Assembly (NCBI RefSeq): GCF_000278215.1
Contig: NZ_JH725068.1
Location: forward strand, 84,337 to 148,336
Length of the DNA: 64,000 nt
Reading direction: 5' to 3'
Source: Bartonella rattimassiliensis 15908
GTDB lineage: Bacteria > Pseudomonadota > Alphaproteobacteria > Rhizobiales > Rhizobiaceae
This document shows positions 52,810-54,809 of the stretch, one piece after another. The notes under the pieces were generated by a model. The model did no database searches. It was not told the origin of the DNA and was given only the letters and a program-made list of their open reading frames with translations. The position numbers and the translations under genes are program-made. Numbering within the stretch: the stretch's first letter is position 1; each line of letters begins with the position of its first letter.

Positions 52810-54195
52810 TTACTTTCGTTCTTGATTTCTGACTGCTCTCAATTCTTCCATTTTTCTATAAAGTGTAGAACGACCGATATGAAGGCGGCGCGCAATCTCA
52901 CTCATATGTCCTTTATAATGTTTAATTGCTTTCTCGATAATATCATGTTCCATCTCTGCAAAAGTACGCACATGTCCATCTGCATTCAAAAATTGTAAAG
53001 ACTCTCGTTCATTATTTTCTTGCATATTGCCTTCAATGATATTGGGAACATTCATTAATGAGCTTCCCATTAATTGGGGAAAATCTCGAACAGTTAATAA
53101 TGGCCCTTCACTGAGTAAAATCGCACGAAATAAAAAATTTTCAAGCTCATTTCTATTACCAGGCCAATCATACTGCATAAGCAAGGAAAGAGCCGATCCT
53201 GCTAAACCATGAACATGTGATCGTCCTGTTTCTGCTATAATGCGATTAATCAAATATTGAGTGATCTCTGGAAAATCATCCCTTAATTCTCGTAAAGCAG
53301 GAACGCTAATAGACAAATGAGAAAATTGTTCAAATAAACTATGTAAAAAGAAGTTTTCTTTAACCAGGTCCTTTAAACGCGATGTTGAAATAGCAATGAT
53401 CCGAAAAGGAAAAAGCTCTCCTTTTGTATCCCTTTCCCTTTCTTTAAGATAATGAGCAAACCGTTTTTGCTGTATGGGTTCAAGCCGATCAATATCACAA
53501 AGGCAAAGTGTTCCTTTTTCAAGCGAAGAAACCAATGGTAGAAATTCTTTAAACCACTGCTGATTTTCTTCTTCTGGATCAATGATGGCTGAACATTGAA
53601 AGCGAATAAAAACGCCCTCCGAGAATAAACCCTCATGATGAATAATCCGAGCTAATGTCTCACGTCCTGTTCCAACTTCACCCTCTATCAAAAGATTTTG
53701 TAAAGAAGTCGCTGCTTTTCTTGATTGCTCTAAAACTATCTGCATAGCTCTACTTTTTATGCAAAGGTCAGAAAAACGTAAATGATTCTCTTTTTTTCGC
53801 CGAATAGCTCGCACCTCATGCTCCAAGGCAGAAATAAGAGCAAGAATATCCAAAGTAACTCTTACTCGTAATAATGTTACTGGTTGAATCCAATAATCAA
53901 TAGCCCCAGCGGCTAAAGCTCTCTGAAGTAAAGTCTGATTCTCCTGTTGTGCTATAACAATAATAGGAACAGAAACACCAGCAACTCTAATCATTTTAAT
54001 CAAATCACTTACACTCAAATCACTCATCACGATATCAAGGAGTGCAAGCACAATGTTTTTACGCCTGTGTAAAAGATCAATCGTACGGAAACCATTTTCT
54101 GCTTCAATGACACGATAACCAAAACCGCGAAGCATAGCAGAAAGCTCTATACGCCTTCCATAATCTTCACTCGCAACAAGAATGGGACCAACCAT
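52810..54195 (-). CDS. NtrC-type response regulator with degenerate receiver and AAA+ domains
   Basis: A 461-residue protein with a receiver domain (about 1-120), an NtrC-like AAA+ domain (about 145-370) and a Fis-type helix-turn-helix (HMSEIARRLHIGRSTLYRKM). Several key positions are altered. The receiver keeps the acceptor Asp (LLDIVMSD) but the conserved Lys is Gln (YWIQPV). Walker A is GEVGTGRE, with Arg for the catalytic Lys. Walker B reads LCLCDID in place of LFLDE. The GAFTGA loop that contacts sigma-54 is absent. It therefore probably acts as a DNA-binding regulator without sigma-54 activation. Its targets are unknown. Confidence 0.8.
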   Translation of the reverse strand: MVGPILVASEDYGRRIELSAMLRGFGYRVIEAENGFRTIDLLHRRKNIVLALLDIVMSDLSVSDLIKMIRVAGVSVPIIVIAQQENQTLLQRALAAGAIDYWIQPVTLLRVRVTLDILALISALEHEVRAIRRKKENHLRFSDLCIKSRAMQIVLEQSRKAATSLQNLLIEGEVGTGRETLARIIHHEGLFSEGVFIRFQCSAIIDPEEENQQWFKEFLPLVSSLEKGTLCLCDIDRLEPIQQKRFAHYLKERERDTKGELFPFRIIAISTSRLKDLVKENFFLHSLFEQFSHLSISVPALRELRDDFPEITQYLINRIIAETGRSHVHGLAGSALSLLMQYDWPGNRNELENFLFRAILLSEGPLLTVRDFPQLMGSSLMNVPNIIEGNMQENNERESLQFLNADGHVRTFAEMEHDIIEKAIKHYKGHMSEIARRLHIGRSTLYRKMEELRAVRNQERK

Positions 54196-54378
54196 AATGT
54201 CAATAATCTCCTTTGAGACTATTCAGCGGCTTAAGGTAAAAACTATTGTAAACCATAAAAAATATTTCACCTCTTGTATTTTGCTTATGAACCTCATCAA
54301 GCTGTTAATTAAATACAACATTAAGGCATTTTTTTCCATTTTTTTGCTTTTTCATTGATTTTCATCAAATTTTTCATA

Positions 54379-54408
54379 TTGACTCATAGTGTAATTTAAT
54401 AATGTTAT
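54379..54408 (+). promoter_or_regulatory. Candidate promoter of the Omp10-like lipoprotein gene
   Basis: TTGACT (54379-54384), 18-base spacer and TGTTAT (54403-54408), about 40 bases before the ATG. The surrounding sequence is AT-rich. Confidence 0.45.
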
Positions 54409-54449
54409 AAAAACTTGAGAGCAAAATAATCTAATATAGAGTGAAATAA

Positions 54450-54809
54450 ATGAAACATACTTATCATATTTTATGTCTTACAATCACCGCTTTGCTATTA
54501 AGTGCCTGTAACTTTTCACAACATTATAACCTCAATATGCCAACTGGAATTGATGGAAAATGGATCGATGAAAACGGTATTGTTTCTTCTTTCCACAATG
54601 GTGTTTTTGAAACGTATGCAGCAGATACAAAAGAAAAACTATCAGAAGGAGTGTATAATTATCTCAATGCTCAAAATATAGAAATTGAAATACGCTCTAT
54701 TCTCCGTGGAACAATCTCTAGAGTCAATTGCGCAATGTCATATGATGAAACACAACTTCTCTGCACCTCACACACAGGAACACAATTTTTTCTTAAGCGA
54801 AAGTTTTAA
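54450..54809 (+). CDS. Omp10-like outer-membrane lipoprotein
   Basis: A 119-residue lipoprotein. The signal peptide ends in the lipobox LLSAC, so the mature N-terminus is a lipidated Cys. The remainder (GIDGKWIDENGIVSSFHNGVF, SEGVYNYL, RSILRGTISRVNCAMS, read in parts) closely follows the pattern I know from Brucella Omp10 (GIEGSWVDPNGIASSFxxGxFET ... EGxYxY ... RGTxSKVNCA). Two Cys in the C-terminal half could form a disulfide. It is monocistronic. Function in the envelope is not well defined for the family. Confidence 0.82.
   Translation: MKHTYHILCLTITALLLSACNFSQHYNLNMPTGIDGKWIDENGIVSSFHNGVFETYAADTKEKLSEGVYNYLNAQNIEIEIRSILRGTISRVNCAMSYDETQLLCTSHTGTQFFLKRKF

Follow-up and report, generated by a model that had tools for sequence, protein, structure and literature searches.

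A conserved Bartonella regulator of TacA type that appears to have lost the machinery of a sigma-54 activator

The 64,000-nucleotide stretch of Bartonella rattimassiliensis 15908 DNA analysed here (the window) carries a gene for a degenerate TacA-type regulator, or pseudo-bEBP. It is probably the orthologue of a rhizobial sigma-54-dependent regulator that has been turned into a regulator working without ATP, without sigma-54 and without a normal receiver switch. Its place in the tree and the loss of both contact loop and ATPase residues agree with an earlier note on this DNA, which had proposed a former sigma-54 activator that, by its motifs, would now be unable to act as one. The degenerate protein is conserved across the genus and in some sister genera, and the succession of changes can be reconstructed. 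Several regulators are known to have lost just the GAFTGA loop; in this one the whole activator machinery appears to be gone. Since that machinery is lost, the database name 'sigma-54-dependent Fis family transcriptional regulator' is misleading in most Bartonella.

The open reading frame (positions 52810-54195, minus strand) starts with ATG, has no internal stops and encodes 461 amino acids in a genome assembly of 2.17 Mb and 12 contigs, of which the window covers 84337-148336 of contig C5. Receiver, AAA+ and Fis-type domains, named in the earlier note, are all detected by Pfam: Response_reg (41 bits), Sigma54_activ_2 (61.8), AAA_lid_14 (56.8) and HTH_8 (45.8), with Sigma54_activat matching in two separate stretches (54.6 bits). 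The NCBIfam equivalogs AtoC, ZraR, NtrC and NtrX fall far under their cut-offs (163 bits versus 714 for AtoC). From Pfam and the alignment, the protein begins with a pseudo-receiver (residues 1-120; 53836-54195, minus strand like all parts that follow). In the structure model a long helix (residues 108-135; 53791-53874) forms the joint between receiver and AAA core, and we presume by analogy that it corresponds to the dimer helix of NtrC1-type proteins. It is followed by a putatively dead AAA+ core (residues 146-300; 53296-53760; Pfam, alignment), whose fold is retained in the model, by the AAA lid (residues 301-376; 53068-53295; Pfam, dN/dS, alignment) and by the Fis-type HTH (residues 411-452; 52840-52965; Pfam, dN/dS), which includes the recognition helix RLHIGRSTLYRK (52852-52887; alignment, tree).

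Motif counts were taken from a 73-row alignment of 52 Bartonella rows and 21 intact orthologues from other families of the order, leaving out a partial copy (L073), a frameshifted one (L129, genome G024) and identical rows. The receiver switch lysine is replaced by Gln104 in the window, as the earlier note had read it; the position holds Y in 27, H in 23 and Q in 2 of the Bartonella rows, never Lys, versus K in 21/21 outgroups. The switch threonine position is Ala82 (A 47, S 4 and L 1 in Bartonella; T in 21/21 outgroups). The phospho-acceptor Asp54, Glu10 and Asp11 are each kept in 52/52 Bartonella rows. By these residues the standard phosphorylation switch (Thr/Ser + Lys) appears lost though Asp54 stays, and the invariance of Asp54, Glu10 and Asp11 in Bartonella would exceed the needs of a plain scaffold.

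The ATPase motifs have fared no better. The Walker A remnant EGEVGTGRETL (53653-53685) has Arg178 in place of lysine (R 48, H 4 in Bartonella; K in 21/21 outgroups), and the Walker B remnant L-C-D (residues 232-234; 53494-53502) has C233-D234 for D-E (C 50, Y 2, then D 45, E 7), both substitutions having been recognised earlier from the letters. So had the absence of the sigma-54 contact loop: a GAFTGA-type loop occurs in 0/52 Bartonella rows and in 21/21 outgroups, all 52 sharing a 10-residue gap at residues 212-228 (53512-53562), the exact place of which depends on the alignment, and alignment with NtrC, NtrX and the orthologues yielded no GAFTGA-bearing alignment for the window regulator. 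The arginine fingers are lost from the stretch FLHSLFEQFS (residues 283-292; 53320-53349), positions 284 and 290 being Arg in 0/52 Bartonella rows and in 21/21 outgroups; the sensor I Asn is found in 0/52, and the sensor II Arg (position 349) is absent from the window copy and present in 5/52. Judged on these alignments, the protein lacks the loop, Walker A and B residues, fingers and sensors of a sigma-54 activator. The recognition helix is intact, as the earlier note had claimed for the HTH: its G, R, S, T, Y and R (441-444, 446, 447) are identical in 52/52 Bartonella rows, and IGRSTLYRK, the same as in intact orthologues, is exact in 32/35.

An AlphaFold2 model built from 54 rows (pLDDT 81.6) includes the receiver, helix 108-135, the AAA fold, the lid and the HTH, with a pLDDT below 50 for residues 378-400; at a pTM of 0.53 the placement of domains is unreliable, and the structure comparison says little about the HTH. 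Over 224 residues the modelled AAA part superimposes on NtrC1 (3m0e) at 2.1 A, with a Z of 23.8. Inactive NtrC1 (1ny5), NtrC4 (3dzd) and Brucella NtrX (5m7p) are among the best whole-chain matches, at 11-16 A, and structures of VpsR and FleQ were matched as well. In the model, the fold of the AAA+ core and lid is kept and the Fis-type HTH is present; the model may lean towards the intact fold, because its alignment included intact relatives.

The closest named orthologues are those of Bartonella (B. grahamii, 95%), and orthologues in other families of the order have 28-36% identity. Among 21 of the latter, Walker A, GAFTGA, Walker B, arginine fingers and IGRSTLYRK are exact in 20, 21, 21, 20 and 19, respectively; in these intact orthologues the AAA-HTH linker is longer than in the window regulator. 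In the tree, the window regulator groups with the TacA-type rows and four NtrX/NtrC rows are separate with a support of 100. The S. meliloti orthologue is LZK74_31095 (record CP090106.1, annotated 'sigma-54 dependent transcriptional regulator'), which adjoins a DUF882 gene, with a relative of the lipoprotein gene 7 kb and hemH 10 kb off (all within about 11 kb). The degenerate regulator lies between DUF882 and the lipoprotein/hemH pair in an rpoN-bearing Bartonella (G003, L313) and in three genomes outside the genus, G531, G469 and G550. In the window, the lipoprotein gene alone of this set adjoins the regulator, and its relative does so in seven rpoN-bearing Bartonella, G024, G583, G489, G531, G469 and G550. 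Because tree and gene order agree, the protein can be assigned as the orthologue of a rhizobial sigma-54 activator that is neither NtrC nor NtrX; the label 'NtrC-type' given to it earlier thus holds for membership of the bEBP family and not for NtrC or NtrX specifically. LZK74_31095 is taken here to be locus SMc04011. The activator is probably S. meliloti tacA, the name borne by SMc04011 in passages of PMC11387232. The record CP090106.1 (L184, L185) is itself unusual: it is 3.72 Mb long and titled plasmid pSymB, yet carries pyk, hemH and chromosome-like genes, and is probably a mislabelled chromosome.

From sequence, the window regulator most likely acts at sigma-70 promoters in a Fis-like way. 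A dimer scaffold made of receiver, linker helix and dead AAA+/lid would then carry the pair of Fis-type HTH domains, and the regulator may, as a constitutive dimer, bind old enhancer-type sites in the manner of Fis, repressing or helping ordinary sigma-70 promoters. Targets would probably be cell-envelope genes such as the divergent neighbour, a 119-aa lipoprotein-like gene (54450-54809, plus strand) recognised by gene order in relatives. Its product may resemble Brucella Omp10; a Pfam search gave it no accepted family, and EspA, proposed by a match at E 0.009, was discarded as under the cut-off. The neighbourhood (DUF882 peptidase and lipoprotein, with L,D-transpeptidase in other families) hints at a cell-envelope role, as a candidate only. 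From the alignment, the candidate operator place is the intergenic region 54196-54449, which separates the regulator from the divergent lipoprotein gene. Among 15 such regions no palindrome was accepted as operator: ATGG-N6-CCAT and GCAA-N12-TTGC occur in 3 regions each, and TCTC-N4-GAGA (6/15; shuffles at most 3) was rejected on account of its position at the ribosome-binding site of the regulator in related rows. A search for sigma-54 promoters beside intact orthologues, over 23 loci and 245,762 bases, gave zero signal, its 6 matches lying within the 4-13 of ten local shuffles.

The regulator is under purifying selection, in line with the earlier claim that it is being kept. The dN/dS of the whole gene is 0.178 (Nei-Gojobori, 28 rows from Bartonella without rpoN), calculated over 315 of 378 pairs, the other 63 lying outside the pS limits. 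By part it is 0.081 for the lid, 0.110 for the HTH, 0.157 for the first linker, 0.173 for the AAA core, 0.215 for the receiver and 0.334 for the AAA-HTH linker. The lid is therefore more constrained than the DNA-binding part, and the AAA module is more than a passive remnant. This constraint, together with the VpsR and FleQ structures among the model matches, would also suit a sigma-70 regulator similar to Rhodobacter capsulatus NtrC or VpsR, in which the AAA+ core binds ATP or c-di-GMP as a signal, and passages of PMC10274813 describe GAFTGA-less relatives that work at sigma-70 promoters. Such nucleotide sensing is nevertheless unlikely here, with the Walker A Lys, Walker B, sensors and arginine fingers all lost, whereas the NtrX of the same genome keeps its Walker motifs and fingers. 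A further feature of the coding sequence concerns codons 1-100 (53896-54195), where windows over the same 28 rows give 0.22-0.46 synonymous differences per site versus 0.39-0.62 elsewhere in the gene; over the first 30-40 codons the values are lower in seven rows from rpoN-bearing Bartonella too. An overlapping gene was rejected as the explanation, stops being present in every other frame.

The relation to sigma-54 itself can be followed across the genus. Profile searches of the window genome with PF04552 or PF04963 found no rpoN; with these profiles, 4/14 control genomes were positive, E. coli and Caulobacter included. PF04552 finds rpoN in 8/37 genus genomes and in 24/24 genomes of other families, and a wider search finds it in 14/71 genus genomes. 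Among these 71, a PF00158 match at E <=1.5e-73 singles out exactly the 14 rpoN-bearing genomes, and two such strong proteins from rpoN-bearing genomes (L152, L154) are NtrC, L152 carrying GAFTGA. In the 57 genomes without rpoN the best PF00158 match is an open frame of 452-461 aa (E 1e-49 to 1e-54), which in the window genome is NtrX; beyond it there is either nothing or a single weaker match at E 1e-8, which among the matches listed lies at the regulator gene. Two rpoN-bearing genomes (G014, G018) have an extra strong PF00158 protein of about 219 bits beside the NtrC- and NtrX-type matches.

The earlier note had linked the conversion to loss of rpoN. Its premise stands, in that the genome has no detectable rpoN, and Bartonella without rpoN are the further decayed, having lost the Walker B Glu. 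That rpoN loss came first, with the machinery decaying afterwards while the DNA-binding part stayed useful, is nonetheless improbable as a cause or background: 14/71 genus genomes keep rpoN, and the copies read from seven of these 14 (L044, L045, L124-L128) already lack the loop. All seven also lack the Walker A Lys, Walker B Asp, sensor I Asn, both arginine fingers and the receiver Lys, so that uncoupling appears to have preceded rpoN loss. They keep the Walker B Glu (7/7) and, in 4/7, a Ser at the switch-Thr position, which indicates that decay continued later. In the regulator tree, where the rpoN-less label is assumed for 17 of the 52 Bartonella rows (named records), copies from rpoN-bearing genomes (support 90) and from rpoN-less ones (99) form two clades that share a stem of 2.31 changes per column. 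In the NtrC tree, two Bartonella NtrC rows group with those of two genomes of the genus g166, G583 and G489 (98/95), as the species tree predicts. This grouping speaks for inheritance, and sigma-54 function in rpoN-bearing Bartonella looks inherited rather than regained, which also counts against rpoN loss as the first step. Elsewhere that order does look possible, in two small genomes in which rpoN was not found, through the TacA of G506 and the NtrC of G516. The former (L225; 1.5 Mb) has a nearly intact Walker A and a rewritten GAFTGA stretch, and resembles the same change at an earlier stage, arisen separately; the latter (L224) has intact Walker motifs and arginine fingers, with DVFSWA replacing GAFTGA.

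The degenerate form extends beyond Bartonella. Of 38 named Bartonella loci, 29 went into row set A1, together with 24 of the 40 distant ones. A search of 151 genomes of the same family gave 30 intact loci, of which 28 have GAFTGA, a set biased to the intact form because it consists of the best 30 matches to the S. meliloti protein. Amid otherwise intact relatives of the family, one 5.4-Mb genome (G473, L213) has a TacA with a shortened GAFTGA and an altered Walker B. Eight small genomes (1.1-2.6 Mb) have a weak or zero TacA match, and rpoN was found in 0/8. TacA is degenerate in four of them (G469, G531, G550, G534). It is also degenerate in G583 and G489 (3.5-3.6 Mb), but their NtrC has GAFTGA, from which we infer the presence of rpoN. 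Sixteen chosen degenerate rows form one clade (100/100; stem 2.06 changes per column), which persists with 14 rows after removal of the three longest rows of the tree, G534, G550 and G506. It comprises Bartonella and five other genera: g166 and four in which rpoN was not detected. The IF-2 tree also unites these lineages (100/99); in topology tests on this single marker, named after the tree had been seen and with fast rows that may attract each other, holding all rpoN-less members together was rejected (p-AU 0.012), and holding the non-Bartonella ones together was not rejected (p 0.20).

Uncoupling would have begun before the Bartonella species diverged, probably in an ancestor shared with at least five sister genera, and further residues would have decayed later. 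The topology tests, if rpoN was never re-acquired, imply that rpoN was lost at least twice after uncoupling began. Lesions seem to have accumulated in steps, because G534 retains a lysine in Walker A (GESGTGKR), and because G531 and G534, unlike Bartonella, have lost Asp54. Some must be independent rather than all ancestral, as the G534 lysine, the Walker B Glu of rpoN-bearing copies and the sensor II Arg in 5/52 rows indicate. Prior uncoupling may help explain why rpoN loss was tolerated. A wider scenario can be put forward tentatively, as possible but not the favoured outcome: uncoupling in a sigma-54-bearing ancestor removed a reason for sigma-54, host-restricted lineages went on to lose rpoN repeatedly, with only the loop-free relatives (NtrX and the window regulator) surviving, and the dead yet constrained AAA+/lid module acquired a new task, e.g. 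ligand or partner binding.

A functionless pseudogene in slow decay is very unlikely. The stem has evolved fast, a frameshift at a run of T splits the G024 copy (a sequencing error or a real loss), and the gene was not found in G018, whose assembly is 85% complete. Further afield, TacA was not found in the rpoN-less small genomes G470, G516 and G568. However, the regulator is present in 36/37 genus genomes (G000-G036) with a near-full-length open frame in 35/37, the G010 and G023 copies stopping a few residues early, and both the dN/dS values (0.18 for the gene, 0.11 for the HTH) and the conservation of IGRSTLYRK contradict decay. A broken bEBP relic is seen in G568, with neither rpoN nor TacA detected, as an AAA-part fragment with two TAG stops (C23, 66456-67070). 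Continued activation of sigma-54 promoters through unusual residues has the general AAA+ fold alone in its favour and is barely conceivable, with sigma-54 undetected in the genome and the contact loop absent.

The conversion of a rhizobial activator into a regulator freed from ATP and sigma-54 can be set beside several known systems. Searches of the open-licence PMC literature on Bartonella sigma-54, TacA, Fis-family regulators and degenerate bEBPs turned up no description of the protein and no experiments on the gene. According to passages of PMC11118080, a B. henselae protein of the same database name (WP_011180514.1) is an in-silico drug target, a link to the window regulator, or to NtrX, by name only. 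Passages of Francke et al. 2011 (PMC3162934) name Bartonella among the genera without sigma-54 and its activators, and put at about 110 the EBP homologues that deviate in GAFTGA. Rhizobial TacA (LZK74_31095) is similar to the window regulator in tree position, gene order, its three domains and the recognition helix; however, it keeps Walker A and B, GAFTGA, the arginine fingers and the receiver Thr/Lys. Bartonella NtrX (L151) and other alphaproteobacterial NtrX are likewise GAFTGA-less bEBP relatives kept without rpoN, and GAFTGA is absent in 9/9 NtrX rows of the NtrC tree. In contrast to the window regulator, NtrX keeps Walker A, Walker B, the arginine fingers and the receiver Lys and belongs to a separate clade. 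Fis, a simple dimer that binds DNA through a similar HTH, has been proposed to originate from an NtrC-type C-terminus; unlike the window regulator, it has neither a receiver nor an AAA remnant. A lost or changed sigma-54 loop is shared with Caulobacter NtrC, R. capsulatus NtrC and HupR, VpsR, TyrR and DhaR. Of these, R. capsulatus and Caulobacter NtrC and V. cholerae VpsR (passages of PMC10274813), and E. coli TyrR and DhaR and R. capsulatus HupR (passages of PMC3162934), are reported or presumed to act at sigma-70 promoters. In the loop-less NtrC cases, phosphorylation is reported to matter, whereas the window regulator has in addition lost the receiver switch and the ATPase residues. It is an extreme case of the loop-less bEBP relatives.
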